A DNA stretch of 64,000 nt from Zygaena filipendulae (taxonomy: Eukaryota > Arthropoda > Insecta > Lepidoptera > Zygaenidae), in NCBI GenBank assembly GCA_907165275.2, contig CAJRBF020000019.1, forward strand, positions 1 through 64,000, in the 5' to 3' direction. Of the stretch, positions 1 through 44,144 are shown piece after piece. How positions within the stretch are numbered: the first letter of the stretch is position 1; each line of letters begins with the position of its first letter. The notes beneath the pieces were generated by a model. That model worked only from the letters and a program-made list of their open reading frames with translations, was not told where the DNA came from and searched no databases. The position numbers and the translations under genes are program-made.

Positions 1-450
1 TGAGCGGATTGATTTTCCTGGCAGAGTAACCCGACAGACTGGTAGACTTAGGGTGGTGCCACGACGGTTGGCACTGATGGACAGAAATCCGCGTGTCATT
101 GGTCCCACGTTCTACGAAAAACTACCGGTGGACATTAAGAACGAAACCTCGGACGAGACATTTGTGCGCCGACTGAAAAACTTTTTATTGGATAGATCAT
201 TGTACTCTGTAAAAGAGTATTTATGACATTATTTATTATTAAGGTAACATTATATTTAAAAATAAATTGTTTACGTATTTACTTTAGTTATTTTGGTATA
301 AGTTGACATTTTTTCGTATTAGTGTTATCAAATAGTATTATTTCAAACTTTTTATTATATTGACAATCTCTTTAGTGAATTTATTTAATTTTAACATAAA
401 ATATAAATGTAATTTTTAAAGAGAGAATAAATCTATCTATCTATCTATCT
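1..450 (+). mobile_element. 3' end of a non-LTR retrotransposon inserted in exon 2 of unit 1
   Basis: Positions 2-226 encode the last 74 residues of a Jockey/CR1-type reverse transcriptase ORF, including a FYEKLPVDIK motif and the ending LKNFLLDRSLYSVKEYL, then a stop. An AT-rich 3' UTR follows and ends in AATAAA plus a (TCTA)n tail at about 429-450, the usual 3' signature of these elements. The tail abuts host exon sequence that is intact in units 2 and 3, so the insertion breaks the zinc-finger exon of unit 1. The 5' part lies outside the window. The clade is my judgement from motif style. Confidence 0.75.
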
Positions 451-506
451 AAGTCATCAAAGAAAAGTCAGCGTTTTACCTCCGCCGCCGCCGCCTCCCC
501 CAAAAG
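449..506 (+). pseudogene. Masc-like gene, unit 1, exon 2 remnant (proline-rich tail)
   Basis: Only the last 58 or so bases of exon 2 remain in the window. They encode the SHQRKVSVLPPPPPPPPK end and finish at an AAAAG|GTAAC donor with one base left over (phase 1). The same sequence closes the full exon 2 in unit 2 (ending 20223) and unit 3 (ending 38142). The zinc-finger part is separated from it by the retrotransposon at 1-450 and may lie left of the window or be lost. Unit 1 is therefore probably not able to make a normal zinc-finger protein. Confidence 0.75.
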
Positions 507-539
507 GTAACTGATGATAATATAAAGTAGCAGTAAATA

Positions 540-1080
540 TAAAAGCTATTCATAACAGCTTCGAAGGGATAGGCAGGGACTAGTGACAATCTTTATAAAT
601 CTTTCTAACATACCTTTTTTACACTTTACAAAACATACATTAGACCCTTGTTGGAATATGGGTTCCAAATATGGAATCTTTACTTTGTAAAAGATATTGA
701 GGTGCTGGAGAGAGTCCAAAGACGTGCTACAAAGCTGCCTAGAGAGCTGAAGAACAAGTCCTATGAGTGTCGACTTCAGAGTCTAGAACTGACCACACTC
801 CAAGAGAGACGAGAACAAGGCGACCTTATAGAAACATATAAGATTCTGAACAATTTTTACAATGTGTCGAACCTAAATTTAATATATAAAAGCAAGGACA
901 ACACCAGGCTCCAAAGGCATAGCACAAAACTAGTGAAGGGACTAGCAAAATCAAACCCATATAAACATTTCCTTACAAACCATGTGGTAAATGCAGCATG
1001 GAACCAGCTCCTTACTGAAGTGATTAACGCACAAACAGTTAATCAATTCAAATACAGACATTGGAACAGTAAAGCATAAA
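540..1080 (+). pseudogene. CR1-type reverse transcriptase C-terminal fragment in intron 2 (unit 1)
   Basis: The frame around 648-1079 reads LYKTYIRPLLEYGFQIWN, then ERVQRRATKLPREL and ERREQGDLIETYKIL. These are hallmark C-terminal motifs of CR1/Jockey reverse transcriptases. There is no catalytic FADD or YADD motif, so it is a dead 5'-truncated relic. The same fragment sits at the same place in intron 2 of units 2 and 3, so it was there before the array formed. It has no relation to the zinc-finger gene product. Confidence 0.8.
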
Positions 1081-1416
1081 ATATAGTTAATCAACGAGAG
1101 AACAGAAAGCAATGAACTGAATAACACGAGTGTAGATAATAGGCGCATCAGCGAAAGCTGCTAGTCTATAAATAATAATACCTCCATAATAATCTCGGTC
1201 ACATTTTAAAATCATTTCCGTTGGTTCCTATTGCTGTTGAAAAATATCTTTCATATCCTCTACTTGATCCATATTTATGTTTTCGTCAGACAACAGTTGC
1301 TTATATACTTTTTTAGTCATTTATCAATCCTTTCAATAAAAAATAGACCTGTTTTTCTCCCTTTTTTATTTACCAAAGTTTTAATTTTTGCTCATCTATT
1401 GACTATTGTATTCCAG

Positions 1417-1486
1417 AGACTACAAAAGCTGATACCATTCCACCAGTGTTTAGCAATCCACCACCTCCTCTACATGTCAATATAAG
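1417..1486 (+). CDS. Masc-like gene, unit 1, exon 3
   Basis: A 70 bp exon between ATTCCAG and AG|GTAAAT. Joined in phase to exon 2 (one base carried) it reads ETTKADTIPPVFSNPPPP and LHVNI, and passes two bases on. It is a proline-rich linker between the zinc fingers and the downstream Cys motif. All three units have the same sequence, which supports it being a real exon. Coordinates may be off by two bases. Confidence 0.7.
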
Positions 1487-2222
1487 GTAAATTGCATTGC
1501 TCAAATAGCTAGCAATATGTCATGTTTATTATACACTTGATAACTTAAAATGTTATTTGAAAACGAAAATTATGTGATTGTTATCTCATCATAATTATCC
1601 GTATTATGAATGTTAAAAACTATACTGAACATTTTCTTGTTAAGTATGTATAAGCGTAAATTTTGTGCTTCTCAAAAAAGCAGCTTTTAAGCTAAAAAGA
1701 TGCTGTGAAGTGAGATTTATAAATCATAAATATACTAACTACCTTAACAGTAATACATTTAACTAGTTGTTCCTCGCTGTTTCGCCCGCGGTAAATTCGG
1801 AGTTGCCGCTGGAATTCCGGGATAAAAGTACCCGATGTTCTTTTCTGTATCCCTGACAATGTGCAAATGGTGACCGGTCAAGTCGTTCTCAAGTAATGGC
1901 GTGACCAAAGGAAATAGGATTTAAATAGGCAATAGATGTGAAATTAAGCGTAACATTTTTTTACCAACCGATTTACCTATTTATGCAAACAGATTAAGAA
2001 ACGGGCTAACTGACTGAGAAAGAGATATATTATGTATGCCCAATTTTGTATACATTTTCGTAAAATTACATTAATTGACCGTTTAGACGGTTACAGTTAC
2101 AGTGCGGCTTGAAGCAGCTATAGGGAAGCTGTTGAGAGTCACAATTCGACACTGTCAAGGGCGCGTGCTACTCCTGAGTACCTACCTACTTTCTTGACAT
2201 AATTTTTTTATTTTATTTTCAG
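1487..2222 (+). other. Intron 3 (unit 1) with a decayed dispersed repeat
   Basis: No gene. About 1750-1840 holds a copy of a moth dispersed repeat with the phrases 'gcccgcgg', 'ggaattccgggataaaagtaccc' and 'tgtatccctgac'. Related copies occur at about 12550, 30150, 51715, 52080, 52215 and 54710, and reversed at about 54520-54590. The rest is unremarkable AT-rich intron, shared with units 2 and 3. Confidence 0.6.
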
Positions 2223-2362
2223 TACTGATAAACCTATAGTTCTTGGTAATCATGTACCAATTAGTAATATTCAAGAAACCAGACCGCTCGAGAGCGATGT
2301 ACGAAATACCGTGCCAGTTACGACTTCTCCATTGAAAGAATGGCATGAAAGGGATTCCGGTG
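2223..2362 (+). CDS. Masc-like gene, unit 1, exon 4
   Basis: A 140 bp exon between TTTTCAG and GGTG|GTACGT. In phase it begins STDKPIVLGNHVPISN and ends SPLKEWHERDSG, leaving one base. I see no named domain; it links the zinc fingers to the CNNC segment. An alternative donor seven bases downstream (AC|GTATAG) would shift to phase 2 and allow splicing to the candidate alternative last exon at 4123. Sequence is the same in units 2 and 3. Confidence 0.7.
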
Positions 2363-3048
2363 GTACGTATAGCTTTTGCCTGCGGCTTAACCTTGTGGAT
2401 TTCGGGGTTCCCAAGGATCGGTTATGTTACGTAAGCTACCTGAATATTAAGCAAATGACTAATTGCCTGGACGAAATTGCTTTTAAGCAATAAGGCCGCC
2501 CTTTGTTGCCTGTATTTCCCACCATGTTTTTTTATATTTATGTTTTTGGTGACAATAAAGAATATTTGATTTGATTTGAGTAATGGTAATCGAAAGCATG
2601 TACAGGATAGACAGGAAAATTTGCAAGATTTACTGTTGATACCATTTTCTCAGGAGTTCTCCAAATAAACGTTTATTGACGCGGAATCTAGGCAGGTCAG
2701 GAAAAGCGTCCATTCAATGAGAACTAGAAAGACTTGGGTCGGCTTATTTATGATAACACGACACGACGGTGACTATCGCAAAAAGTTTTTTTTTATTGAG
2801 TAGGTAGTTAAGACATTAAAGTATAACAAAAAACTCATACATATATACTTAGAATTAACTCATATACTTAGGATTATAGTAGCTGACGCTATAATAGTAG
2901 CTGTGCGTCGCGTTGTTTTATGTATTTTTTCCGCTTATCCTTTTTTTTTATAATTATATTTATGGCTAGTAGTTATATAGGTATATAGCAAAAATAAAAC
3001 TTAAAGAAAACATTATCTGACTCCAAAAAAACAAAATTGCTCTACACC

Positions 3049-3497
3049 ACGGATCGTCGACCTTTTCTTATGGGCCACAAATGTTATGAGGATATTCTTA
3101 AGAGCCATAAACACCTTTTTTTTAGTAAAGAATATTTTTTGCAATTTTAACAATATTTATTGTTACTCTCATTTTAATATATTAGGTAAAGCGATTTTAA
3201 GTTGTACATGATTTGAAAGTTTTTAATATCTGCTTCCATTTTAGACGTAGAAACGCACAGTATCGCATCTCAATGTTTATCGGCCACTCGAGAAGAATGC
3301 TTGTTTTTTCGATAGTTAACGATTGAAAAGGTCTGCTCACATAGATATGTACTACCAAACTTATTGAGTATTTTTGTTTAATGCCTGCGGTGCAGCGGCA
3401 TCGTGCGAAACGTACTCGTACTCGTACTTGCGCGGGGCGCACCGTAGTGGCTTACTGGCCGCATGCGCTTCGAGGGCCGCTGGTTGCCGACCCATCG
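3049..3497. mobile_element. hAT-like MITE in intron 4 (unit 1)
   Basis: The ends 'acggatcgtcgacc' and (reverse) 'cgatgggtcggcaacc' are similar inverted termini, and the interior has the 'gggccacaaatg' phrase seen near hAT ends. It is flanked by 8-base direct repeats, tctacacc and tctacact, the target-site length of hAT elements. Copies lie at 22772-23220 and 40669-41117 in the other units, so it predates the array. No transposase is encoded. Confidence 0.6.
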
Positions 3498-3649
3498 TCT
3501 ACACTAAAAACCAAACAAATACTAAATACAGATTTAATCCAACTGACTAAAATGCACGTGTAATAATATTATTAGTATCTGTAACCTACAGAACAGTTTG
3601 AAATGGGTGCCAAGCCAAATATTATAGGTATCGTTCAAATAACGTGGTT

Positions 3650-3995
3650 TTAAATTGGTCTATCTGTCGTGGCCACATCAAATAAATAATTGGTCAATTC
3701 ATGATGTGGCCGGCCATTTAAGTAATTGTGGCATTTCATGAAATGGTCGGTCACATCATGAACTATATGAAAGCAAAATATGGTGATATGTATGATAATA
3801 ATTGGATCGTGTACTTGGCGCATCGCCAGCCGCTACTGTGGCATGCTCTCGCTATGTTCGGTCGGCTCGCGCGACTTTGTAAACCTCGCGACAAACCTAA
3901 CCTAACCCAGAATGATGCTATATAGTGGTAATATAACATGGTATTTCATGAAATGGCCGGCCACATCGTAAATTGGCAAATTCTTAGATATGGCC
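3650..3995. repeat. Fold-back repeat in intron 4 (unit 1)
   Basis: Contains repeated inverted modules built on 'ggccggccacatc' and 'tttcatgaaatgg' (about 3670-3720 and 3944-3990), with a more GC-rich centre. It looks like a MITE or a palindromic repeat. The 65-codon open frame inside it is fortuitous. Also present in units 2 and 3. Confidence 0.4.
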
Positions 3996-4122
3996 CGATA
4001 TCGATTAGCAAAAGGTGAATTTAAGTAAATTCGTATAATGCTCGAACCATATTCAGCCGATTCGTATACAGACCGATAAATTCTTTTTTCAAGGCGAATT
4101 CAATGTTATTTTGTAATTTCAG

Positions 4123-4189
4123 ATTTCCTGGTTCGTATCAAGGCACCAAATTTTATCCAAAATGTAACAGCTGTGCTCTAGACGAATGA
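4123..4189 (+). CDS. Candidate alternative last exon with a CNSC motif (unit 1)
   Basis: A good acceptor (TTTTGTAATTTCAG) precedes a frame reading FPGSYQGTKFYPKCNSCALDE and a stop. It joins in frame only if exon 4 uses the downstream donor at AC|GTATAG, giving ...SGGTFPGSYQ. From the main exon 4 donor (phase 1) the frame instead reads DFLVRIKAPNF and stops soon after. The C-x-x-C resembles the CNNC in exon 5. It is present in all three units (23846-23912, 41743-41809). It could be an isoform end or chance; transcript data would decide. Confidence 0.35.
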
Positions 4190-4228
4190 TATAATTAAAT
4201 AGGTGAATAATTATGTGAATAAATTATT

Positions 4229-5416
4229 GTGAGAGTAGTAACCTTGAAGACAAAAAATGGCATTATGAAAAGACCGGTCTCCAAAATATCGTTATTGCCA
4301 CTTCAATCGAACTCCTCAACAGTATCAGATGAACAAAAGAGTGATGAAGGTAAAAATAGAGTTCGAAACCAGGCGAATAATAATGGCAAGTTAGCAAAAA
4401 GTTATCAATTTATATCAATGGCTATATCACTTATTTTATTCCTGACGATTGTATCACCGGCGAGTGCATTGTTTAACATAACAAAATTTAATGAAGACCA
4501 ATTCTTATACTTCGATTCTATAGCCAACTTACAACTTATTCGTGACGACTGGACTATGATTGTATACTATAATATGTCTCCATACTGGGAAGGTGCAACA
4601 GCTGTTAACAAATTCACGCAGTACTTAGAAAGAACATGTGATAAATTCCAGGAACAAACACGATGCCAGATGATTTTACTACAATTACGTCACGAACAGA
4701 CTGAGCTACAATACTATAATCAACTTTTGCTGAATCAGGAAGGTAACGGGATCTCGAGACAGCGACGGGGCATTATCAATGGAGTAGGTTACATTGCGAA
4801 TACGTTGTTCGGCGTATTAGACGATCGTTTCGCAGAACAGTATAAAAAGGATATAGAATTATTAAAGAACAATCAGAGATACCTAGAATCATTATGGAGA
4901 AATCAAACATCAGTAGTCGAAGGGGAATATAATTTATCAAAAAGAACGGAAGAAATGGTAGCAAGGCAACATAAAGCAATAAATAAACATTTAAACAGCT
5001 TAGATGAGTCAACTATTGAGAACGAGGCGCCAGAGCAAAAGGAAATCAACCAAAGCTTAGCTGAACTACATAATCAAATAGCGACAATGAAGGAAAAGGT
5101 TCAGTCTTCAGAGATATCAATATCAGGACATGACATTCATCAATATGTGGTCAGTTACGTGATCATAGCTGCTGCAGCTGTCCTGGGAGCGAGCATTTGG
5201 TGGCGGAGGAGGAGGCGGGCGTTACGCATCCCTCCCCCCGCGCAGGCGGAGAACAGAGCCAGCAGTGACGTGCGTGTGAGTGTAGTGAGTGCGCGAAACG
5301 AAAGTGAGATCAGTGCGGGCAGGAAAAGTCAATCGAGTGTAGAATTAGTCGATCGGGCAACTTCGCCTAAACCAAAAAGGTGTAATTTTAAGGTCATTGA
5401 TGAATCAAAACTATAG
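4229..5416 (+). CDS. env: Errantivirus / baculovirus F-like envelope protein, internally deleted
   Basis: 395 residues. A hydrophobic signal or anchor lies at about 60-82. An N-terminal subunit carries two Cys (137, 146). A furin-type site RQRR at 177-180 is followed directly by a glycine-spaced hydrophobic fusion-peptide-like stretch (181-197). Charged helical, heptad-like sequence follows, then a transmembrane segment at about 306-325, an Arg-rich stop-transfer and a Ser-rich cytoplasmic tail. This is the order of insect errantivirus Env and baculovirus F proteins, which drive membrane fusion. The region between the heptad-like helix and the membrane anchor is much shorter than usual and lacks the family's Cys-rich ectodomain, so it is unlikely to be a functional fusogen. 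The frame is otherwise open. No polymerase gene accompanies it. Confidence 0.75.
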   Translation: MRVVTLKTKNGIMKRPVSKISLLPLQSNSSTVSDEQKSDEGKNRVRNQANNNGKLAKSYQFISMAISLILFLTIVSPASALFNITKFNEDQFLYFDSIANLQLIRDDWTMIVYYNMSPYWEGATAVNKFTQYLERTCDKFQEQTRCQMILLQLRHEQTELQYYNQLLLNQEGNGISRQRRGIINGVGYIANTLFGVLDDRFAEQYKKDIELLKNNQRYLESLWRNQTSVVEGEYNLSKRTEEMVARQHKAINKHLNSLDESTIENEAPEQKEINQSLAELHNQIATMKEKVQSSEISISGHDIHQYVVSYVIIAAAAVLGASIWWRRRRRALRIPPPAQAENRASSDVRVSVVSARNESEISAGRKSQSSVELVDRATSPKPKRCNFKVIDESKL

Positions 5417-5577
5417 AGACTTTACGTGATCATTACGAATTTTAGTATGTTTTTTTGTGCTTTTATGTCAATTGCTATAATCATTATCATTTCTGAGTAT
5501 CATTTTAATTGTAATCATTTAATCTTATTTCATCTCTCATCTCGTGGTCGGGAGCATGTTCGGTCCACTGCGTGAAA

Positions 5578-5990
5578 CCGAACACTGCTTTCGACAGCGA
5601 TTTACGCGATCGAGCCGCTTTCCTACAGCCCGGTCGCGGCAGTCGATTCATGTTGGTCACGGGCGTCGGTATACTATCAATTAATCCATAACAAACGAAT
5701 CGGCTCGCCAGCCGCGTCCCGTGCCGACCACAACATCTATCATAGACAATCACCCTGATATACAATAAACAAATAAATCAACATATCTAGCCGTATCAGT
5801 CACAGGTCACTGCTTTCGACAGCGATTTACGCGATCGAGCCGCTTTCCTACGGCCCGGTCGCGGCAGTCGATTCATGTCGGTCACGGGCGTCGGTAGACT
5901 ATCAATTAATCCATAACAAGCGAATCGGCTCGCCAGCCGCGTCCCGTGCCGACCTCAACATCAATCATAGACAATCACCCTGATATAGTG
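5578..5990. repeat. Two tandem copies of a GC-rich LTR-like block
   Basis: A block of about 180 bases starting 'cactgctttcgacagcg' and ending 'caatcaccctgatat' occurs at about 5578-5757 and again at about 5806-5986 with a few substitutions. A short AT-rich spacer containing AATAAA separates them. Its place just after env fits a partial, duplicated LTR of the donor element, but I could not define LTR ends. Confidence 0.5.
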
Positions 5991-6211
5991 ATTATAGTGA
6001 TTATGAAGTTTCTCGGCCATGGGCATAGCCGCGACACCGCGATATGAATGCATTAAAGTTGTATCCGCGATAAAAAAAAATCCCTAGTACGCCAAGAAGC
6101 TTAGCTTTTGTTTGAATTTTTCACATTTTTCATTATTTGTTTTTACATGTTTCCGTGCGATTTGAGCTGAGCGATTGCCTTTATGTCATGTTTGTATATT
6201 TTGTTCTGCAG

Positions 6212-6290
6212 CAACTATCTCGCCGCGTGGAAATGAGAATGCTGAAAAACCTGTAAAAACGTGCAATAACTGCAAAACTAATGAGTTCAG
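6212..6290 (+). CDS. Masc-like gene, unit 1, exon 5 (C-x-x-C exon)
   Basis: A 79 bp exon between TTCTGCAG and TTCAG|GTCTGT. It takes one base from exon 4 and passes two on. It reads TISPRGNENAEKPVK then TCNNCKTNEFR. The paired cysteines with two residues between them, downstream of tandem CCCH fingers, are the basis for comparing the gene with Masculinizer, whose masculinising region is known for two conserved Cys three positions apart. Same in units 2 and 3. Confidence 0.7.
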
Positions 6291-6715
6291 GTCTGTGTTT
6301 TATATTTATCATAAAATTATATTGAAATGGCAATAACTGTTTGCGAATAATATTTTGTCTTTATTTATTGCGAAAAGACGTTGGCTACAGGTTAATATTT
6401 AACACTTAATTCTATTATAGGTATAGTTTGTTTTCAATATAAATGAATAGTATTCAATCAGTATAATGTTTACTTTATTCAACGCCATAGTTCTTACAAT
6501 AGTTGCGAAGTTCTAAATTATTACATAAATTAATTAATATAATTATATGAGACTGTGCAGTGACCAAAGTTTTGAAATGTAATCTTATTGGATTTTTTAA
6601 AAACATTATGATGGAAAACTTTATTTTCTCAAAATAACAGCGAAACACTAAATATGTTTTCTTATTTCATAAATCTACCCAGCCGCTTATTTATGCTCAC
6701 GTTTCGTGTTTACAG

Positions 6716-6845
6716 GTTGCAGTATAATAAAAAAAAAGTGGAAAAAATGTTACAAGAATCCCAAACCAATTCACAAAAAATGAACCAATTGATTAAAAAG
6801 AACCAAAAGCTATATCAGGTGATCTTGACACTTCTTAAGCCAAAT
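6716..6845 (+). CDS. Masc-like gene, unit 1, exon 6 (coiled coil)
   Basis: A 130 bp exon between GTTTACAG and CAAAT|GTAAGT. It reads LQYNKKKVEKMLQESQ, then NSQKMNQLIKKNQKLYQ and ILTLLKPN, a charged heptad-like helix likely to form a short coiled coil. It ends in phase 0. The exon is conserved in all three units, although an LTR element lands 48 bases before its unit-2 copy. Confidence 0.7.
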
Positions 6846-7140
6846 GTAAGTATTTTATGAGTTTTAGTATCGTAGATCTATGAAATACTTAAACCAGCTG
6901 CGGTTTTCCCGTGCGACGCATATTAATTATCTTTAATTAACAGTAAATCGACATAGATCGTAAATATTTCATACACATTATTTTTATAATTTTTTTTAAC
7001 AAGTAGGCTTCTTTTGTGAAATAGGTTTTGTGAATAGGATTTTCATGAATTTCATAGTCATTTTAGATTCATAAAATAAGACAAAGACCTCATGTCTCCG
7101 GCTATGTGTAACTAAAGTTAAAACATTTTTCTCATCTTAG

Positions 7141-7206
7141 AATAAAACCGGCCTGTCGGGTGGTTTAACCGGCACACAGTTCAACCCAAACGGCGATAAA
7201 GAAGAG
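7141..7206 (+). CDS. Masc-like gene, unit 1, exon 7
   Basis: A 66 bp phase-0 exon between CATCTTAG and GAAGAG|GTAACG, reading NKTGLSGGLTGTQFNPNGDKEE with a break at neither end. In unit 3 it joins in frame to the terminal exon at 44082. In unit 1 no terminal exon follows before the copia relic, so transcripts must either read into unit 2 or stop in the intron. Confidence 0.65.
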
Positions 7207-7620
7207 GTAACGTACCAAAATTTGATTTTTACTAGAGATGTTCCGACAATCCGACAACTTTTGAAGTCGGAGACAAATTCGGGAAAGAGCGCCGACTATC
7301 CGGTTTCTCACTTTGGTTGTATTTCTCAATAAAATGTATGAAGGGGGAATTACATTAAATAAATTCATAATAATTACGGGAATTATTGTCCAATTGATTA
7401 AAAAAAATCCATAGACGAGACTTTATTTTTGACATGATAACATTAACAATAAATAATACAGAGTGACAAAAATCTTTAGACAAAAATATTTTTTACACAA
7501 AAACGCCGCTCTGGCCCGTAGAAAACCAAAAATCAAGAAACAATGTGAAGGAAACGAAACAGTCCCCCTAGCCAAATCGACATTCTACAATCGTTAATAC
7601 ATAGAAACTAAGTAACAAAT

Positions 7621-8798
7621 GGCGCCGCTACCGGATGATCGCGCCCGGCTCCGCAAAACGCACGGTCGAGTTCCGTCAGCCGACTAACAACGAGATCAAA
7701 CACGACGCGGTGCGTTTCGTTGATCATAATAATTATATATTTTAACATCTACCCTCACCCAAAATTTGTATAATTATGTATTTATTTTACTATGCTGGTT
7801 GTTCATATTTTTTTTTAGTAGTATATAACTCCGCACCTACTGATGTGTCTATATATTATATTTTGTAGTTTGTTTATGATATATTATATACATTAAATTG
7901 GAGATGTTATTGTATTTTTATGTAATTATTATTGTAATTTATGTACATATTTTACCCTAGTCTATTTACTAATACAAAAATGATTTATTAATTTATTTAT
8001 TTTAAACTCTGCGCCCACACCCGTGACGTCACACGCGGCTCCAGCGGAAGACCAGCGTCGGGCCCCTAATGGTTCCCGGCTTATGCTGAGCTGGTTGCCC
8101 TTTTGTTACGACACGCTATTTAGGCTACTTTTTGTTTATTCATATTGTTATATTGGTCGTAACGAATAAAATATATTTCATTTTCATTTCATTTCATTTC
8201 ATTTCATTTCATTTCATTTCATTTCATTTCATTTCATTTCATTTCATTTCATTTCATTTCATTTCATTTCATTTCATTTCATTTCATTTCATTTCATTTC
8301 ATTTCATTTCATTTCATTTCATTTCATTTCATTTCATTTCATTTCATTTCATTTCATTTCATTTCATTTCATTTCATTTCATTTCATTTCATTTCATTTC
8401 ATTTCATTTCATTTCATTTCATTTCATTTCATTTCATTTCATTTCATTTCATTTCATTTCATTTCATTTCATTTCATTTCATTTCATTTCATTTCATTTC
8501 ATTTCATTTCATTTCATTTCATTTCATTTCATTTCATTTCATTTCATTTCATTTCATTTCATTTCATTTCATTTCATTTCATTTCATTTCATTTCATTTC
8601 ATTTCATTTCATTTCATTTCATTTCATTTCATTTCATTTCATTTCATTTCATTTCATTTCATTTCATTTCATTTCATTTCATTTCATTTCATTTCATTTC
8701 ATTTCATTTCATTTCATTTCATTTCATTTCATTTCATTTCATTTCATTTCATTTCATTTCATTTCATTTCATTTCATTTCATTTCATTTCATTTCATG
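7621..8798 (+). mobile_element. TTTCA-tailed non-LTR retrotransposon fragment (unit 1 only)
   Basis: Unit 3 lacks this segment (its flanks meet at about 43508). The insert starts with a GC-rich piece that reads like an ORF end (DDRARLRKTHGRVPSAD, stop). It continues with an AT-rich 3' UTR and 'gctgagctggttgcccttttgttacgacac', and finishes in a very long (TTTCA)n tail. This is the layout of a 5'-truncated non-LTR element with a simple-repeat 3' tail. Confidence 0.6.
8176..8798. repeat. (TTTCA)n microsatellite, about 124 units
   Basis: An almost perfect 5-base tandem repeat of roughly 620 bases, with one irregular unit near the left end. It makes an artefactual FISFH repeat frame. It is the extended tail of the retroelement to its left. 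Confidence 0.95.
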
Positions 8799-9106
8799 TC
8801 ACTTCAGCCAATCAAAACATGGCTAATCGGCTAGTCGGCCAAAGTCGTAATCGGCACATCTATAAATTTGTTACTATTCGTAATTCGCGCGTCTTGTAAC
8901 GCGCTGTACGCGCTTGGAGTTTCAAATTAGCATAAATACTCAGCAGAGTACAAAGGAGTCAGGTTAGACGAGGGACGTATTAAAAGAAGGTAGGTACTAG
9001 GTAATTAGTATTTGATTCTCGTCTCAAATAGTAAGAAACAAAACCTTCATTTTTGACTTAAAAAAAATTGTACAGATTGCCCAAGTAGCTCTGGGGGTTT
9101 TTATCG

Positions 9107-9489
9107 GTTTTTGGTGCATTTATAATGAAGCATGATCTGTTTAGCAGCAATCTTCTCTCGTGAGAAGTTGTAGCGGACATCTGTTTTTACTACGCGCGTG
9201 GTAGACTGCGTTTCCTGAAAGACTAATCGCACTCTGATTATTGCAGTTTACCTTCAGGTTAAATTCAAAATTCGTCTGGTCGAGTATCCTGTGATAAGTA
9301 TAATAAGCAGTCGACTTTTTCTTGATATGAAATATTCTCTAAAATTACTTGTTGACTTTCAGCTTTCTTCAGTTTAACATTAGCATCAGCAGGTACCCAC
9401 ATCGGCTTATGTTCATTCCAAATCATGTAAGTATAATTTTTATGTAAATTAATTGTGACATAATAGCAATGAGAGACTTCGGTGAACAT
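9107..9489 (-). pseudogene. Copia reverse transcriptase/RNase H C-terminal scraps
   Basis: The minus-strand frame ends with YQEKVDCLLYLSQDTRPDEF (copia pol YQ..VGSLLYL...TRPD region). A second scrap below 9265 reads CNNQSAISLSGNAVYHARSK, the RNase H motif normally seen as CDNQSAI...HARSKH. The catalytic reverse transcriptase core between integrase and this point is missing. Truncation at about 9107 coincides with the array breakpoint. Confidence 0.7.
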
Positions 9490-9496
9490 TATTAAT

Positions 9497-11881: not shown

Positions 11882-12055
11882 ATTTATAATGTACTTTTCA
11901 ATTTCTTAATAGGTACAAAGCTGAAAAATAAAAACACTCGCGAGCCCGGTAACCAAAAGTGAGGTTATACTTGCGATTTTTACTTTTAACTTTGTAATTA
12001 ATGTCCAAAATACAAAATAACTTTACACGGCAGGTTTGGTACTGGGCCCATAACC

Positions 12056-16528: not shown

Positions 16529-16593
16529 AATAGACAAATATTGCTCGAAACTGACTGTAATAAAGAAAATGTACCTGAAGTGGACCTGTGCCC
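16529..16593 (+). CDS. Second exon carried in the TTAA insert
   Basis: Between CATTTTCAG and CC|GTGAGT. In phase it reads NRQILLETDCNKENVPEVDLC and passes two bases on. Its ENVP phrase recurs in the third exon. Short, but its borders and phase match its neighbours. Confidence 0.45.
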
Positions 16594-34643: not shown

Positions 34644-37084
34644 ACCTTACTTAATTATTAATAGATAATTAACTTACTTAATTATTAATAGTAATTACTA
34701 CCCAACGATATACAGGACCCAAATACAATACTTATGCACATTACAGATCGTTTTCAAAACTGTTATGATAAGGCCGAAATAACGTTTAAAACAAAAGATA
34801 GACCTACTCCTTCGTGGATGTCAAATGAAATAAGGAAATGCCTCGAACAGCGAGATCAAGCATATTATTCATGGAGAAAAGATCCTTCAAACGCAAACTC
34901 ACGCCTAATCTACAACAAAATACGAAATAAACTCAATAAAATTATACAAAAAGCTAAAAATAAAACTATCAATCAAGAGATAAATAAATGCGATGGTGAT
35001 AAGCGAAAACTCTGGCAACTAATAAATAGCCTTACTGGCAGAACCTGTAATAGCATAGAGGATACGATTTTTCGGCACATGGGGGACCAGCCACTAGGCA
35101 CAGTACTGGAGAAATTTGCAAAGGAGTTTCAAAGTAGTGTCGAAAGTATTAAAACATCATGCAAACAAAGAATATTAGAAAGTTCCAACATCAACACGGA
35201 TAGAAGTATAAGAATTAAAAAAGCAACTGAAGACGAAGTGCGAAGACTAATTCGACAACTAAACTCTGATAAAGCCCCCGGAGTCGATAAAATCAGAGCT
35301 ATAGACTTAAAACACGTCGCCGAGTCTATTGCACCTGCTGTCAAAACACTAATCAACAACAGTATTGAAACAGGAATATATCCCAATGACTTAAAAAACG
35401 GACTGATAAGACCCATTTACAAAAAGGGAGAACATAACAAATACTCTAACTATCGACCCATTACAATATTACCAACAATCAATAAACTGATGGAAAAATT
35501 CTTTGGAGACCAAATACAAAAATTTCTGAGCACAAATAGAATAATTGCTGATCAACAATTTGGATTCCAGCCAAACAAAGGGACGGGCCGACTCCTAGCA
35601 CGATTCTCAGATGAAATCAACAGCTATCTTAACCTGAAACAACATGTTCTTGTAGTCTTCATCGATTACAGCAAGGCATTCGACACACTAGTACATAAAA
35701 CTCTAGCCCAAAAAACAGAACAATGTGGAATAAGAGGGCCAATACTCAAACTTCTTGGGAACTATCATGCTGGGAGACAGTCGTTCGTCAGAATAGGAAA
35801 CGAGACAAGCCGCGGTATTCCAGTAACCTACGGAGCCGCCCAAGGATCAGTATTAGCACCCATTGAATATCTAATGTACGTGAATGATATGCTGAGTATA
35901 GCTACGGTATCCTCCTTATACCAATTTGCAGATGATACAGCAATAATCTCCTCTCACAAAGACCTTAGAGTTGCACAAAATATGCTACAGACAGACTTCG
36001 ATCTCATTAGCAAATGGTCGCATGACGCAGGTCTAGTGCTCAACACCGATAAAACAAAACTGCTGCACATACACTCATGTCATATGAAAGACCATCTGAT
36101 ACCACAAATATTCGCACACTCTCACGACTGTTTGCACCAGAAGAACTGCGTCAAGACTGACTGCAAACAACTAGAACTAGTAAATCAAATCAAATACGTT
36201 GGTCTTGTTGTAGATAACAGATTTAACTGGCGTGAACAAGTAAAGGCCGTCTGTTGCAAACTCAGAATCTTTCTGGCTAAATTCACGATCCTCAAATACA
36301 GGCTCCCAGTATCTATCCTGATAACACTTTACAAAGCCATAGTAGAACCCACTATTGCCTATGGATTGAGCACTTATGGCAGAACATTTCCCTCGTATAC
36401 CGAGGAAATCAAGAGACTTCAAGTAAGATTACTAAAAGTAATAATACCCAACAAAGTTAAAAACAAACTTAAGCATAACGAATCTAAATTATTTTCCTTC
36501 TGTAAAATCCTACCGTTTGAAGATTTATTTTTATCCTCACTCCTAAACACTTATAATTTCGATCTAGAAAATATAAACTTGGAAAAAATAGAGAACGAAT
36601 ACAATACAAGAATTAAACATAGAAAAATATTTGTAACACCAAAATTTAAAAACCACTACGGAGAAAGAGCGGGAACACACCTTATACCTCAAACACTTAA
36701 CACCTTGCCTATAGAAATACGTACAATGTATGGAACAAAGAAATTCAAATATGAACTAAAAAAGTACCTAACATTTAAAATTAACGGGACCGATTAAAAG
36801 GATCGCGCGTGTACAGACTTCGGGTGGGAGTATCCATGAAAGTCCAATTATCCATCTCGCTCACAGCAACAGACCGCGCTACCTACCTCCATGATGGCTG
36901 TAATGTGGTTGGTGTTTACTATCTGGTATTTTGTTTTATAATATGGTACCTGTATGATGTTAGGAAATAAATCATAGCAACTACCTACCTACCTCACAAA
37001 TTAAAAAAGTCAGATGCGACACCAATAAGCCCTTTCGGGCTTAAGTGTCTTGTATAATGTTGTTAATGTATTTGTTTTTTTCTG

Positions 37085-37140
<56 letters not shown>
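34644..37140 (+). mobile_element. CR1/Jockey-group non-LTR retrotransposon in intron 1 (unit 3 only)
   Basis: Splits 'catcaattggtggttg', which is continuous in unit 2 (19207). It is 5'-truncated, encodes reverse transcriptase and ends in a run of about 52 A at 37089-37140. The long uninterrupted ORF and intact poly(A) point to a recent insertion, after the array formed. Confidence 0.8.
34734..36797 (+). CDS. Non-LTR reverse transcriptase, endonuclease missing
   Basis: 687 codons open. The order of motifs is LNSDKAPGVDKIRAIDLKH, KNGLIRPIYKKGEHNKYSNY, FGFQPNKGTGRLL, FIDYSKAFDTLVH, AAQGSVLAPIEYLMYVNDM and YQFADDTAIISSH (the catalytic FADD). A C-terminal region with VNQIKYVGLVVDNRFNWREQ and YKAIVEPTIAYGLSTYG follows. 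This is the CR1/Jockey-group plan for target-primed reverse transcription. The usual P before QGS is replaced by A. The N-terminal endonuclease is absent, so it cannot move on its own. Its first ATG is probably not the native start. Confidence 0.8.
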   Translation: MHITDRFQNCYDKAEITFKTKDRPTPSWMSNEIRKCLEQRDQAYYSWRKDPSNANSRLIYNKIRNKLNKIIQKAKNKTINQEINKCDGDKRKLWQLINSLTGRTCNSIEDTIFRHMGDQPLGTVLEKFAKEFQSSVESIKTSCKQRILESSNINTDRSIRIKKATEDEVRRLIRQLNSDKAPGVDKIRAIDLKHVAESIAPAVKTLINNSIETGIYPNDLKNGLIRPIYKKGEHNKYSNYRPITILPTINKLMEKFFGDQIQKFLSTNRIIADQQFGFQPNKGTGRLLARFSDEINSYLNLKQHVLVVFIDYSKAFDTLVHKTLAQKTEQCGIRGPILKLLGNYHAGRQSFVRIGNETSRGIPVTYGAAQGSVLAPIEYLMYVNDMLSIATVSSLYQFADDTAIISSHKDLRVAQNMLQTDFDLISKWSHDAGLVLNTDKTKLLHIHSCHMKDHLIPQIFAHSHDCLHQKNCVKTDCKQLELVNQIKYVGLVVDNRFNWREQVKAVCCKLRIFLAKFTILKYRLPVSILITLYKAIVEPTIAYGLSTYGRTFPSYTEEIKRLQVRLLKVIIPNKVKNKLKHNESKLFSFCKILPFEDLFLSSLLNTYNFDLENINLEKIENEYNTRIKHRKIFVTPKFKNHYGERAGTHLIPQTLNTLPIEIRTMYGTKKFKYELKKYLTFKINGTD

Positions 37141-37485: not shown

Positions 37486-38142
37486 GTTCAGAAAAGTTGC
37501 GACGGGTTGGTGTTGATGAGCAAAACATTAACTTTCGCCCTTCTCCCAACTTCAGGAACATGAAAAAGTATCTCAAACTTAAAATTGATGGCAAAGAATC
37601 AAGTTCAAGCCAGTCACCACCTCCTGTGGCACTTGAGTCCTCACCATCGCCTAACAAAGTAGAAAAAGACGTTAAATCACCTAAGATAGCTCAAGTGATC
37701 CAACCACCATTGCCTTTGGATCCCCCACCACCGGACAGTCCACCGGGCTTAATATTAACACTTAAAAAAGAACTGGAAGACATTGAGGAAGAGAAAACAG
37801 AGTCAATAGAAACAAATGAAGAACTCATCACAGAGTTTAAAAGCGATAAGTCTGAATCTCCAGAAAAACCAAAGCCCACAATATGCAGAGACTTCATAAG
37901 GGGTTCGTGTGCACGTACATGTAAATTTGTTCATAAATTTGATTTGTCACAACTTAGCGGTGTATTTACATTCTGTCGCAACTATCAAAATTCTAAGTGC
38001 ACGTTCCGCCAGTGTAAATATGTTCATGCTACAGTCTTCGAAGAGCAAAACTTTTATCGCACCGGTATACTGCCTCCAAATGCTCTAAGTCATCAAAGAA
38101 AAGTCAGCGTTTTACCTCCGCCGCCGCCGCCTCCCCCAAAAG
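37486..38142 (+). CDS. Masc-like gene, unit 3, exon 2: tandem CCCH fingers with finger 1 shortened
   Basis: 657 bp. As unit 2 exon 2, but a 6-base in-frame deletion (around 37917) changes finger 1 from C-x7-C-x5-C-x3-H to C-x7-C-x3-C-x3-H (CRDFIRGSCARTCKFVH). Such spacing is outside the usual CCCH range and probably weakens or destroys zinc binding. Finger 2 (CRNYQNSKCTFRQCKYVH) is intact. This matters because this unit alone has the terminal exon. A sequencing or assembly slip is possible. Confidence 0.75.
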
Positions 38143-38169
38143 GTAACTGATGATAATATAAAGTAGCAG

Positions 38170-38695
38170 TAAATATAAAAGCTATTCATAACAGCTTCGA
38201 AATAAATCTTTATAAATCTTTCTAACATACCTTTTTTACACTTTACAAAACATACATTAGACCCTTGTTGGAATATGGGTTCCAAATATGGAATCTTTAC
38301 TTTGTAAAAGATATTGAGGTGCTGGAGAGAGTCCAAAGACGTGCTACAAAGCTGCCTAGAGAGCTGAAGAACAAGTCCTATGAGTGTCGACTTCAGAGTC
38401 TAGAACTGACCACACTCCAAGAGAGACGAGAACAAGGCGACCTTATAGAAACATATAAGATTCTGAACAATTTTTACAATGTGTCGAACCTAAATTTAAT
38501 ATATAAAAGCAAGGACAACACCAGGCTCCAAAGGCATAGCACAAAACTAGTGAAGGGACTAGCAAAATCAAACCCATTTCCTTACAAACCGTGTGGTAAA
38601 TGCAGCATGGAACCAGCTCCTTACTGAAGTGATTAACGCACAAACAGTTAATCAATTCAAATACAGACATTGGAACAGTAAAGCATAAAATATAG
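38170..38695 (+). pseudogene. CR1 reverse transcriptase fragment in intron 2 (unit 3)
   Basis: Same relic as in units 1 and 2, with two small extra deletions. One replaces 'cccatataaacatttcc' by 'cccatttcc' and shifts the frame. Confidence 0.8.
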
Positions 38696-39025
38696 TTAAT
38701 CAACGAGAGAACAGAAAGCAATGAACTGAATAACACGAGTGTAGATAATAGGCGCATCAGCGAAAGCTGCTAGTCTATAAATAATAATACCTCTATAATA
38801 ATCTCGGTCACATTTTAAAATCATTTCCGTTGGTTCCTATTGCTGTTGAAAAATATCTTTCATATCCTCTACTTGATCCATATTTATGTTTTCGTCAGAC
38901 AACAGTTGCTTATATACTTTTTTAGTCATTTATCAATGCTTTCAATAAAAAATAGACCTGTTTTTCTCCCTTTTTTATTTACCAAAGTTTTAATTTTTGC
39001 TCATCTATTGACTATTGTATTCCAG

Positions 39026-39095
39026 AGACTACAAAAGCTGATACCATTCCACCAGTGTTTAGCAATCCACCACCTCCTCTACATGTCAATATAAG
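39026..39095 (+). CDS. Masc-like gene, unit 3, exon 3
   Basis: 70 bp, same reading as in the other units (ETTKADTIPPVFSNPPPP...). The polypyrimidine tract upstream matches unit 1 rather than unit 2. Confidence 0.7.
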
Positions 39096-39829
39096 GTAAA
39101 TTGCATTGCTCAAATAGCTAGCAATATGTCATGTTTATTATACACTTGATAACTTAAAATGTTATTTGAACGAAAATTATGTGATTGTTATCTCATCATA
39201 ATTATCCGTATTATGAATGTTAAAAACTATACTGAACATTTTCTTGTTAAGTATGTATAAGCGTAAATTGTGTGCTTCTCAAAAAAGCAGCTTTTAAGCT
39301 AAAAAGATGCTGTGAAGTGAGATTTATAAATCATAAATATACTAACTACCTTAACAGTAATACATTTAACTAGTTGTTCCTCGCTGTTTCGCCCGCGGTA
39401 AATTCGGAGTTGCCGCTGGAATTCCGGGATAAAAGTACCCGATGTTCTTTTCTGTATCCCTGACAATGTGCAAATGGTGACCGGTCAAGTCGTTCTCAAG
39501 TAATGGCGTGACCAAAGGAAATAGGATTTAAATAGGCAATAGATGTGAAATTAAGCGTAACATTTTTTTACCAACCGATTTACCTATTTATGCAAACAGA
39601 TTAAGAAACGGGCTAACTGACTGAGAAAGAGATATATTATGTATGCCCAATTTTGTATACATTTTCGTAAAATTACATTAATTGACCGTTTAGACGGTTA
39701 CAGTTACAGTGCGGCTTGAAGCAGCTATAGGGAAGCTGTTGAGAGTCACAATTCGACACTGTCAAGGGCGCGTGCTACTCCTGAGTACCTACCTACTTTC
39801 TTGACATAATTTTTTTATTTTATTTTCAG

Positions 39830-39969
39830 TACTGATAAACCTATAGTTCTTGGTAATCATGTACCAATTAGTAATATTCAAGAAACCAGACCGCTCGAGA
39901 GCGATGTACGAAATACCGTGCCAGTTACGACTTCTCCATTGAAAGAATGGCATGAAAGGGATTCCGGTG
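39830..39969 (+). CDS. Masc-like gene, unit 3, exon 4
   Basis: 140 bp, same reading and same donors as in units 1 and 2. Confidence 0.7.
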
Positions 39970-40668
39970 GTACGTATAGCTTTTGCCTGCGGCTTAACCT
40001 TGTGGATTTCGGGGTTTCCCAAGGATCGGTTATGTTACGTAAGCTACCTGAATATTAAGCAAATGACTAATTGCCTGGACGAAATTGCTTTTAAGCAATA
40101 AGGCCGCCCTTTGTTGCCTGTATTTCCCACCATGTTTTTTTTTTATATTTATGTTTTTGGTGACAATAAAGAATATTTGATTTGATTTGAGTAATGGTAA
40201 TCGAAAGCATGTACAGGAAAGACAGGAAAATTTGCAAGATTTACTATTGATACCATTTTCTCAGGAGTTCTCCAAATAAACGTTTATTGACGCGGAATCT
40301 AGGCAGGTCAGGAAAAGCGTCCATTCAATGAGAACTAGAAAGACTTGGGTCGGCTTATTTATGATAACACGACACGACGGTGACTATCGCAAAAAGTTTT
40401 TTTTTATTGAGTAGGTAGTTAAGACATTAAAGTATAACAAAAAACTCATACATATATACTTAGAATTACATACTCATTACTCATATACTTAGGATTATAG
40501 TAGCTGACGCTATAATAGTAGCTGTGCGTCGCGTTGTTTTATGTATTTTTTCCGCTTATCCTTTTTTTTATAATTATATTTATGGCTAGTAGTTATATAG
40601 GTATATAGCAAAAATACAACTTAAAGAAAACATTATCTGACTCCAAAAAAACAAAATTGCTCTACACC

Positions 40669-41117
40669 ACGGATCGTCGACCTTTTCTTATGGGCCACAA
40701 ATGTTATGAGGATATTCTTAAGAGCCATAAACACCTTTTTTTTAGTAAAGAATATTTTTTGCAATTTTAACAATATTTATTGTTACTCTCATTTTAATAT
40801 ATTAGGTAAAGCGATTTTAAGTTGTACTTGATTTGAAAGTTTTTAATATCTGCTTCCATTTTAGACGTAGAAACGCACAGTATCGCATCTCAATGTTTAT
40901 CGGCCACTCGAGAACAATGCTTGTTTTTTCGATAGTTAACGATTGAAAAGGTCTGCTCACATAGATATGTACTACCAAACTTATTGAGTGTTTTTGTTTA
41001 ATGCCTGCGGTGCAGCGGCATCGTGCGAAACGTACTCGTACTCGTACTTGCGCGGGGCGCACCGTAGTGGCTTACTGGCCGCATGCGCTTCGAGGCCCGC
41101 TGGTTGCCGACCCATCG
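40669..41117. mobile_element. hAT-like MITE in intron 4 (unit 3)
   Basis: Orthologous to 3049-3497, with the same 8-base flanking repeat. The fold-back repeat follows at about 41270-41615. Confidence 0.55.
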
Positions 41118-41742
41118 TCTACACTAAAAACCAAACAAATACTAAATACAGATTTAATCCAACTGACTAAAATGCACGTGTAATAATATTATTAGTATCT
41201 GTAACCTACAGATCAGTTTGAAATGGGTGCCAAGCCAAATATTATAGGTATCGTTCAAATAACGTGGTTTTAAATTGGTCTATCTGTCGTGGCCACATCA
41301 AATAAATAATTGGCCAATTCATGATGTGGCCGGCCATTTAAGTAATTGTGGCATTTCATGAAATGGTCGGTCACATCATGAACTATATGAAAGCAAAATA
41401 TGGTGATATGTATGATAATAATTGGATCGTGTACTTGGCGCATCGCCAGCCGCTACTGTGGCATGCTCTCGCTATGTTCGGTCGGCTCGCGCGACTTTGT
41501 AAACCTCGCGACAAACCTAACCTAACCCAGAATGATGCTATATAGTGGTAATATAACATGGTATTTCATGAAATGGCCGGCCACATCGTAAATTGGCAAA
41601 TTCTTAGATATGGCCCGATATCGATTAGCAAAAGGTGAATTTAAGTAAATTCGTATAATGCTCGAACCATATTCAGCCGATTCGTATACAGACCGATAAA
41701 TTCTTTTTTCAAGGCGAATTCAATGTTATTTTGTAATTTCAG

Positions 41743-41809
41743 ATTTCCTGGTTCGTATCAAGGCACCAAATTTTATCCAAAATGTAACAGCTGTGCTCTA
41801 GACGAATGA
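41743..41809 (+). CDS. Candidate alternative last exon with CNSC (unit 3)
   Basis: Same reading as in the other units (FPGSYQGTKFYPKCNSC...). If used from the alternative exon 4 donor it would end the protein without the CNNC and coiled-coil exons. Confidence 0.35.
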
Positions 41810-42095
41810 TATAATTAAATAGGTGAATAATTATGTGAATAACTTATTATGTGTATTTGTTACATAGTCTTGGCGCACTAGTGATTATGAAGTTTCGCGG
41901 CCATGGGCATAGCCGCGACACCGCGATATGAATGCATTAAAGTTGTATCCGCGATAAAAAAAAATCCCTAGTACGCCAAGAAGCTTAGCTTTTGTTTGAA
42001 TTTTTCACATTTTTCATTATTTGTTTTTACATGTTTCCGTGCGATTTGAGCTGAGCGATTGCCTTTATGTCATGTTTGTATATTTTGTTCTGCAG

Positions 42096-42174
42096 CAACT
42101 ATCTCGCCGCGTGGAAATGAGAATGCTGAAAAACCTGTAAAAACGTGCAATAACTGCAAAACTAATGAGTTCAG
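42096..42174 (+). CDS. Masc-like gene, unit 3, exon 5 (CNNC exon)
   Basis: 79 bp, reading TISPRGNENAEKPVKTCNNC and then KTNEFR with exon 6. Borders TTCTGCAG and TTCAG|GTCTGT. Cys pair intact. Confidence 0.7.
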
Positions 42175-42599
42175 GTCTGTGTTTTATATTTATCATAAAA
42201 TTATATTGAAATGGCAATAACTGTTTGCGAATAATATTTTGTCTTTATTTATTGCGAAAAGACGTTGGCTACAGGTTAATATTTAGCACTTAATTCTATT
42301 ATAGGTATAGTTTGTTTTCAATATAAATGAATAGTATTCAATCAGTATAATGTTTACTTTATTCAACGCCATAGTTCTTACAATAGTTGCGAAGTTCTAA
42401 ATTATTACATAAATTAATTAATATAATTATATGAGTCTGTGCAGTGACGAAAGTTTTGAAATGTAATCTTATTGGATTTTTTAAAAACATTATGATGGAA
42501 AACTTTATTTTCTCAAAATAACAGCGAAACACTAAATATGTTTTCTTATTTCATAAATCTACCCAGCCGCTTATTTATGCTCACGTTTCGTGTTTACAG

Positions 42600-42729
42600 G
42601 TTGCAGTATAATAAAAAAAAAGTGGAAAAAATGTTACAAGAATCCCAAACCAATTCACAAAAAATGAACCAATTGATTAAAAAGAACCAAAAGCTATATC
42701 AGGTGATCTTGACACTTCTTAAGCCAAAT
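42600..42729 (+). CDS. Masc-like gene, unit 3, exon 6 (coiled coil)
   Basis: 130 bp, same as in unit 1, without the LTR insertion that precedes it in unit 2. Confidence 0.7.
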
Positions 42730-43028
42730 GTAAGTATTTTATGAGTTTTAGTATCGTAGATCTATGAAATACTTAAACCAGCTGCGGTTTTCCCGTGCGA
42801 CGCATATTAATTAATTATCTTTAATTAACAGTAAATCGACATAGATCGTAAATATTTCATACACATTATTTTTATAATTTTTTTTAACAAGTAGGCTTCT
42901 TTTGTGAAATAGGTTTTGTGAATAGGATTTTCATGAATTTCATAGTCATTTTAGATTCATAAAATAAGACAAAGACCTCATGTCTCCGGCTATGTGTAAC
43001 TAAAGTTAAAACATTTTTCTCATCTTAG

Positions 43029-43094
43029 AATAAAACCGGCCTGTCGGGTGGTTTAACCGGCACACAGTTCAACCCAAACGGCAATAAAGAAGAG
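43029..43094 (+). CDS. Masc-like gene, unit 3, exon 7
   Basis: 66 bp phase 0. One change against the other units turns Asp to Asn (FNPNGNKEE against FNPNGDKEE). Joins in frame to exon 8 at 44082 across a 987-base intron. Confidence 0.7.
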
Positions 43095-43949
43095 GTAACG
43101 TACCAAAATTTGATTTTTACTAGAGATGTTCCGACAATCCGACAACTTTTGAAGTTGGAGACAAATTCGGGAAAGAGCGCCGACTATCCGGTTTCTCACT
43201 TTGGTTGTATTTCTCAATAAAATGTATGAAGGGGGAATTACATTAAATAAATTCATAATAATTACGGGAATTATTGTCCAATTGATTAAAAAAAATCCAT
43301 AGACGAGACTTTATTTTTGACATGATAACATTAACAATAAATAATACAGAGTGACAAAAATCTTTAGACAAAAATATTTTTTACACAAAAACGCCGCTCT
43401 GGCCCGTAGAAAACCAAAAATCAAGAAACAATGTGAAGGAAACGAAACAGTCCCCCTAGCCAAATCGACATTCTACAATCGTTAATACATAGAAACTAAG
43501 TAACAAATCGTCATGTCACTTCAGCCAATCAAAACATGGCTAGTCGGCCAAAGTCGTAATCGGCACATCTATAAATTTGTTACTATTCGTAATTCGCGCG
43601 TCTCGTAACGCGCTGTACGCGCTTGGAGTTTCAAATTAGCATAAATACTCAGCAGAGTACAAAGGAGTCAGGTTAGACGAGGGACGTATTAAAAGAAGGT
43701 AGGTACTAGGTAATTAGTATTTGAGTCTCGTCTCAAATAGCAAGAAACAAAACCTTCATTTTTGACTTAAAAAAAATTGTACAGATTGCCCAAGTAGCTC
43801 TGGGGGTTTTTATCGGTTTTTCTGTCAGTAAAAAAAAACAATTTCCTTAGAAAATGTGGCATCGATAGATAAAAAAATAAACTTACGGCGTACGTAATTC
43901 TCAAAGTTTTTGATTGAATAAGCAATATTCTTACTTATGCATACAAGAC

Positions 43950-43992
43950 AATATGTCCGTTGGTATCTTTAAAAGATACCAACGGACATATT
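43950..43992. repeat. Perfect 19 bp hairpin in intron 7, 90 bases before exon 8
   Basis: 'aatatgtccgttggtatct' is followed by a 5-base loop (ttaaa) and its exact reverse complement. It lies just right of the point (about 43824) where the repeated units stop. Could be a small MITE remnant or a structured intronic element. Confidence 0.8.
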
Positions 43993-44081
43993 TTCTAACT
44001 TTAGGTACGACTAGTCGTTCATTCGTTATGGGTACTTTTGATAAAAAATCAATTTAATGTTTATTACCATATTATTTTTAG

Positions 44082-44144
44082 ATGTTGTTGGAACAATTGA
44101 GCGAATATTTTGCCGCCAACAGATCACCTGACGACAAAATATAA
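44082..44144 (+). CDS. Masc-like gene, terminal exon 8 (only copy in the window)
   Basis: After ATTATTTTTAG the phase-0 frame reads MLLEQLSEYFAANRSPDDKI and stops. Exon 7 joins to it in frame. I looked for the same sequence after exon 7 of units 1 and 2 and did not find it. The amphipathic LLEQLSEYFA helix may extend the coiled coil. It lies outside the repeated unit, which indicates that the rightmost copy is at the ancestral 3' end. Confidence 0.6.
   Translation: MLLEQLSEYFAANRSPDDKI

Follow-up and report, generated by a model that had tools for sequence, protein, structure and literature searches.

The stretch of DNA analysed here (the window) comprises the first 64,000 bases of an 85,602-bp contig (CAJRBF020000019.1, hereafter C41) of the moth Zygaena filipendulae (assembly GCA_907165275.2; 365,880,709 bases in 56 contigs). 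It carries three head-to-tail, intron-bearing units of the zinc-finger gene znf-2, at positions 448-9112, 19561-27612 and 37486-44144. An initial annotation of the window had recognised the three units, which self-comparison confirms, and had assigned them to Masculinizer (Masc); the array gene is znf-2, not Masc. The array probably stems from a single transfer of the gene from the Z to the W chromosome, followed by tandem duplication with the right-hand breakpoint in the last intron. This confidence covers identity, origin and W linkage jointly and does not extend to function.

Structure of the array

A full copy of znf-2 has seven coding exons, one fewer than first annotated, which end in phases 1, 2, 1, 2, 0 and 0 before a final exon with a TAA stop. 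Units 1 and 2 comprise the first six coding exons and lack the last. Within the window, the terminal exon (44082-44144) is confined to unit 3, as had been noted, and no counterpart for units 1 and 2 was found in 254001-323656 of the neighbouring contig C33 or in C41:64001-85602. A genome search with window positions 44000-44300 lists 43 matches (40 scored among 338 first-look candidates), two of which cover the terminal exon (one is the window itself, the second C54:9773534-9773768); the remaining 41 start past it, in the downstream repeat. Directly past the last exon lies an inverted-repeat element (44232-44476) with dozens of matches across many chromosomes. Three units are to be read as a minimum, the genome searches being non-exhaustive.

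The phases given in the initial annotation hold: the penultimate exon of unit 3 (43029-43094) ends in phase 0 and the exon at 44082 begins in phase 0, and splicing of the former to the first two shared exons of a next unit is out of frame. Read-through splicing over the following unit, which had been invoked for units 1 and 2, is not needed, since a duplication breakpoint in the last intron suffices to explain the single terminal exon. Units 2 and 3 show neither a nonsense mutation nor a frameshift in their exons; in unit 3, a 6-bp in-frame deletion turns the CX5C of finger 1 into CX3C, with the loss of two residues. A short upstream exon (MQ...), implied by the relatives, was not found, and no support was seen for a further exon between 39969 and 42096. 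A candidate at 41743-41814 was dropped because of a stop within its frame.

Unit 1 begins on C33 (323,656 bp), the final 15.7 kb of which (307958-323656) correspond to window positions 1-15764 and represent an assembly overlap. Within this overlap, the interval 8000-9000, which holds a microsatellite, accounts for 95 of the 97 mismatches and 75 of the 85 gap columns; the other 10 gap columns are at 2500-3000. The microsatellite, a long TTTCA tract within a unit 1 insertion (8022-8900), differs between the two contigs. The left 607 of the 663 nucleotides of the unit 1 zinc-finger exon lie at C33:303688-304294, with the upstream flank also on C33, and are followed by a roughly 4.1-kb long interspersed nuclear element (LINE) that reaches into the window with its 3' end (positions 1-447). 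Unit 1, described initially as devoid of its first exon, is interrupted by the LINE and not truncated. Statements about C33 refer to sequence outside its stretches 10001-100000, 110001-200000 and 210001-254000. The features of the window are as follows (LTR, long terminal repeat).

1-447 (+): 3' end of the LINE, a non-LTR retrotransposon, inside the unit 1 zinc-finger exon; remainder at C33:304294-308405
448-506 (+): unit 1 zinc-finger exon, final 59 nucleotides; remainder at C33:303688-304294
1417-1486 (+): unit 1 second shared exon
2223-2362 (+): unit 1 third shared exon
4232-5994 (+): insertion specific to unit 1 (not in units 2 and 3), with a 397-residue envelope-like frame at 4223-5416 (Pfam Baculo_F)
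6212-6290 (+): unit 1 CNNC exon
6716-6845 (+): unit 1 helix exon
7141-7206 (+): unit 1 penultimate exon, the final one of this unit
9113-12260 (-): copia-like element (by eye) separating units 1 and 2, with its open frames on the strand opposite the genes
12261-19560 (+): spacer 5' of unit 2, with pieces of the Z-copy upstream flank in 12261-15210 (inverted), 15286-15746 and 18396-19560
19561-20223 (+): unit 2 zinc-finger exon, intact
21132-21201 (+): unit 2 second exon
21936-22075 (+): unit 2 third exon
24199-24277 (+): unit 2 CNNC exon
24663-27061 (no strand): LTR-like insertion with terminal direct repeats of 455 columns in a unit 2 intron, not in units 1 and 3
27106-27235 (+): unit 2 helix exon
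27531-27596 (+): unit 2 penultimate exon; gene homology stops at 27612
27617-29061 (-): truncated copia-like element (by eye) touching unit 2, frames opposite to the genes
34644-37139 (+): LINE insertion 5' of unit 3, not at the matching place in unit 2
37486-38142 (+): unit 3 zinc-finger exon, with the 6-bp deletion
39026-39095 (+): unit 3 second exon
39830-39969 (+): unit 3 third exon
42096-42174 (+): unit 3 CNNC exon
42600-42729 (+): unit 3 helix exon
43029-43094 (+): unit 3 penultimate exon
44082-44144 (+): terminal exon with stop, in unit 3 only; 63 of 63 nucleotides identical to the Z copy
44773-50968 (+): Gypsy-type element whose LTRs differ at 1 of 568 positions; Z-locus homology stops here

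Identity of the array gene

The array protein has 44 relatives at E<=0.01, mostly uncharacterised lepidopteran proteins, of which 41 carry a species name, and two profile searches return 54 relatives each, at thresholds of E<=0.001 and E<=1. The relatives share a layout of two CCCH fingers, a proline-rich middle, a CxxC motif and a helix-like stretch. The Bombyx relative (P0073) is LOC101738733, which a table of a genome-wide association study equates with KWMTBOMO15133 on chromosome 25, and the latter is named Bmznf-2 in a study of Ostrinia (PMC12783822); the family of the array is therefore znf-2. The array gene is homologous to Bmznf-2 across the fingers and the CxxC motif. Six LOC gene names were sought in papers and none was found. 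A second, shorter and faster-evolving znf-2 relative (P0060) occurs in Maniola jurtina on a 7.35-Mb contig, the full copy (P0012) being on another contig.

The yardstick for Masc was P0086, a hypothetical protein of Tuta with a finger pair spanning 51 residues, a basic stretch, a CDHC motif and, at its end, a long proline-rich region containing YN, features that match published Masc and by which, rather than by name, it would qualify as Masc. A tree of 46 rows was rooted on it by choice and provides no separate test of znf-2 identity. When P0086 is searched against the genome, four places are listed: C54:4636582-4637163 and 4630704-4630874, C33:304074 (in array unit 1) and C10:4478779. Absent from the matches listed are the zinc-finger exons of the window itself and the Z-linked znf-2. 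The C54 locus at 4.63 Mb also encodes a CTIC motif and a proline-rich end (HMPYNAGN...). The match at C10:4478779-4479042 is CCCH-like and lies inside an open frame of 519 residues.

That the array gene is Masculinizer itself, as initially annotated, is thus exceedingly improbable. The tandem CCCH fingers, the proline-rich middle and the CxxC motif with its helix-like stretch are common to Masc, and the finger pair of the array gene spans 50 residues, close to the 51 of P0086; the array protein has a CNNC motif followed by a helix-like stretch, and znf-2 contains a motif of this kind as well. On C54 there is a separate Masc, with YN in its proline-rich end, as the best match to P0086, and therefore the array gene is not Masc. 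Moreover, the Bombyx member of the family is Bmznf-2, and the array family ends without the proline-rich YN domain of the Masc C-terminus, the array protein closing with ...MLLEQLSEYFAANRSPDDKI. The bipartite nuclear localisation signal of Masc, with four basic residues (KR...KK), reads KE...VK in the window and the Z copy, and KR...KK in most of the aligned relatives.

Parent copy and chromosomal assignment

The assembly derives from a female sequenced to 58-fold HiFi coverage (PMC11422757). Contig sizes agree to rounding with those of the genome note (16 autosomes, W and Z) in 17 of 18 cases, the remaining one being C23 (9.00 versus 9.02 Mb; PMC11422757), and these sizes lead us to infer that C30 is the W and C54 the Z chromosome. 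Between them stand contigs C31-C53, whose sizes fall strictly if they are taken, in lexicographic order, as scaffolds 1-23, a pattern noticed after 15 of the 23 scaffolds and borne out by the remaining eight, all within the predicted ranges. Together they amount to 9.62 Mb; the text of the genome note places 99.99% of the sequence on chromosomes, and its Table 2 gives 9.65 Mb as 'Unplaced' (PMC11422757). From the scaffold order and the genome note, C33 and C41 are very likely unlocalised W scaffolds.

The Z chromosome (14.6 Mb) carries one intact znf-2 (C54:9773624-9780272) and, 5.1 Mb away, the separate Masc (4.626-4.637 Mb). In Tuta, the presumed Masc (P0086) and a znf-2 relative (P0051) lie on contigs of equal size (33,770,291 bp), which indicates that znf-2 and Masc share one chromosome there, as they do in Z. 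filipendulae. Bombyx znf-2, unlike that of Z. filipendulae, is autosomal (chromosome 25), and the chromosome common to Masc and znf-2 may be the older home of znf-2.

Origin of the array

Outside the exons, units 1, 2 and 3 differ from the Z copy by 86 of 4378 (1.96%), 79 of 4938 (1.60%) and 101 of 5808 (1.74%) positions, and from one another by 17 of 3702 (0.46%), 22 of 4260 (0.52%) and 22 of 4858 (0.45%), so that the introns are indeed near-identical, as had been stated. In the exons, units 1 and 2 are identical over 544 columns, and the other comparisons give 1/544 and 2/1130 differences besides the 6-bp deletion in unit 3. At 61 of 86 variable columns all units stand together against Z. 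The spacers contain pieces of the upstream flank of the Z gene, one of them inverted. Gene homology of unit 1 stops at 9112, in the last intron and 254 bp before the last exon, and gives way to a copia-like piece; unit 2 adjoins such a piece directly after 27612.

These data point to a scenario in which a Z segment spanning about 16 kb with gaps (C54:9773241-9789427), including znf-2 and its introns, was probably copied to the W, and a portion that began in the upstream flank and ended within the last intron was then duplicated in tandem, leaving the terminal exon to the last unit. The mutation rate in Heliconius is 2.9e-9 per site and generation; at this rate the split from Z would date back roughly 3 million generations, ancestral polymorphism included, and the duplication roughly 0.8 million. 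Retrocopies were rejected as a source, the introns being retained, as was a haplotig of the Z locus, no common flank being found past 44773.

An assembly artefact, whereby haplotypes or a single unit were laid out repeatedly, had been raised at the outset. The assembler did stumble here, as the 15.7 kb shared by the end of C33 and the start of C41 attest, yet unit-specific insertions and about 0.5% substitutions between units speak against this explanation, as does the 58-fold HiFi coverage (PMC11422757). Past 44773, C41 has but a few short matches to C54:9755001-9795000, taken as repeats, and its portion 64001-85602 has none. An artefact is therefore very improbable.

Possible function and comparison with known systems

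The array could, tentatively, be a young feminizer which acts through PIWI-interacting RNAs (piRNAs) against Z-linked znf-2 and which arose independently of that of Ostrinia. Female-limited transcripts of the array, including antisense transcripts from the copia pieces at the junctions, may feed the piRNA pathway, and the resulting piRNAs may lower the Z-linked znf-2 mRNA and thereby weaken a male-determining complex of Masc and znf-2 in females. The copia-like pieces at both unit junctions are oriented against the genes and are, by conjecture, candidate sources of antisense RNA. Multicopy homology to a male-determining gene, a feature of W-linked feminizing piRNA loci, is present in the array. 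Perfect matches in the window exist for 840 of the 1022 exon-internal 28-mers of Z-linked znf-2, and three pieces of Masc (983 nucleotides) have not a single 16-mer in common with the window in either orientation. In a fourth Masc piece (2481 nucleotides, 3' region), 324 20-mers recur in the window, in agreement with a 442-bp repeat between two coding stretches. The RNA target, if the array acts via RNA, would thus presumably be znf-2.

The closest precedent is OfFem of Ostrinia furnacalis, in which 17 short znf-2 repeats on the W give rise to one piRNA that cleaves znf-2 mRNA; znf-2 associates there with Masc and is required for male dsx splicing and dosage compensation, its binding to Masc and role in dsx splicing being reported for Bombyx as well (PMC12783822). 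Both systems have W-linked tandem copies of znf-2, with znf-2 as the (here putative) target, but the repeats of OfFem measure 162-197 bp (PMC12783822), whereas those of Zygaena, described here at the DNA level, are entire units with introns that resemble the Z gene closely in sequence. Two further znf-2 copies on the Ostrinia W are called pseudogenised by a 6-kb insertion, much like the insertion-broken unit 1, and the text consulted does not describe them as a tandem intron-bearing array (PMC12783822). W-BaMasc of Bicyclus anynana is likewise a W-linked, multicopy gene of the male pathway that lacks 3' exons, although it concerns Masc and not znf-2, misses exons 6-10, has 1-13 copies per exon by read depth and, as reported, yields no RNA or small RNA (PMC11067997). 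In Plutella xylostella, Pxyfem comprises tandem W copies of a male-determining gene amid transposon graveyards, but these are spliced Masc retrocopies with demonstrated antisense transcripts and piRNAs (PMC9674220). Fet-W of Lymantria dispar and Fem of Bombyx mori also produce a piRNA from repeated W sequence, with only short target homology (21 nucleotides for Fet-W) and with Masc as the target (review PMC13087858). Among the matches listed in full-text literature (for one search, 20 of 147 papers), exclusive of subscription papers, preprints and a listed paper on the W of the Asian corn borer (PMC11064298), W copies of znf-2 were recognised as a topic of the Ostrinia study alone, and no paper was recognised as treating such copies in Zygaena.

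Several points weigh against a W-linked znf-2 array that acts as a feminizer. The genes are in sense orientation, antisense transcription being conjecture, and the W-linked Masc copies of Bicyclus are silent in RNA and small-RNA data (PMC11067997), which makes silence a genuine prospect for the Zygaena array too. Few of the coding changes relative to Z are replacements (2 of 10 and 3 of 12), a constraint that a piRNA template does not need. The yardstick for Masc, P0086, is a protein without a gene name that was recognised from its features. The case for W linkage draws on the order of the contigs and on a genome note with 9.65 Mb 'Unplaced' (PMC11422757). GC (guanine plus cytosine) content is of no help on this point: that of the window (36.5%) and of C33:254-324 kb (36.6%) is nearer to that of autosomes than of the W, the published values being 40.8% for the W, 39.4% for 'unplaced' sequence and 35.8-38.6% for the autosome rows seen (PMC11422757); the whole of C41 has 38.4%.

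A recent duplication without function, in which the W took up a Z segment that was copied in tandem and is now drifting, has about an even chance of being correct and is likelier than a role in piRNA production. It is favoured by the exon of unit 1 split by a LINE, the two residues missing from finger 1 of unit 3, the absence of the last exon from units 1 and 2, the unit-specific insertions and the silence of the W-BaMasc copies (PMC11067997). The paucity of replacement changes counts against it, although low divergence may reflect youth together with ancestral Z polymorphism already filtered by selection, and so does the functional precedent of tandem W copies of znf-2 in Ostrinia (PMC12783822). 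The initial description of multicopy, decaying copies of a sex-determination gene on a female-specific chromosome stands as regards a multicopy gene of that pathway and, by inference, the chromosome, but not the gene name. Decay is likewise true in part: it is apparent in the LINE-split exon, the deletion in finger 1 and the missing last exons, but units 2 and 3 have exons free of nonsense and frameshift, and units 1 and 2 are identical over the exon columns compared. Rather unlikely is a W-linked protein gene, whether the complete unit 3 yields a znf-2 with an altered finger 1, for example one that pairs with Masc in females to dominant-negative effect, or units 1 and 2 yield a form shorter by the last 20 residues: ancestral polymorphism accounts for the few replacements with no need for selection on the W, and the upstream start exon was not found.

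The Ostrinia study proposes that the evolution of a feminizing piRNA starts when a male-determining gene moves to the W (PMC12783822). The zygaenid array is a candidate for that step, having kept its introns, with near-identical copies, datable events and the same (here putative) target, znf-2, and it resembles the arrangements from which the female-determining switches of other moths evolved. If the feminizer reading is true, znf-2, and not Masc alone, would have been hit repeatedly by W chromosomes.

Mobile DNA around the array

The window is dense in mobile DNA. Open frames of at least 150 residues, mostly transposon by eye, occupy 41% of C41. In four stretches of C33 their share is 36-75%, compared to 8% and 6% in two C54 stretches, which are few and were picked for their genes. 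Polinton/Maverick-like open frames (one with Pfam Pox_A32, the rest by eye) are found at window positions 58617-60205 and at C33:1-10000 and C33:288998-296043, and window positions 58252-60200 are 98% like C33:294460-296426. An open frame resembling an inhibitor of apoptosis protein, with BIR- and RING-like portions by eye, occurs in two copies amid transposon genes (C41:70976-71641 and C33:281661-282332).

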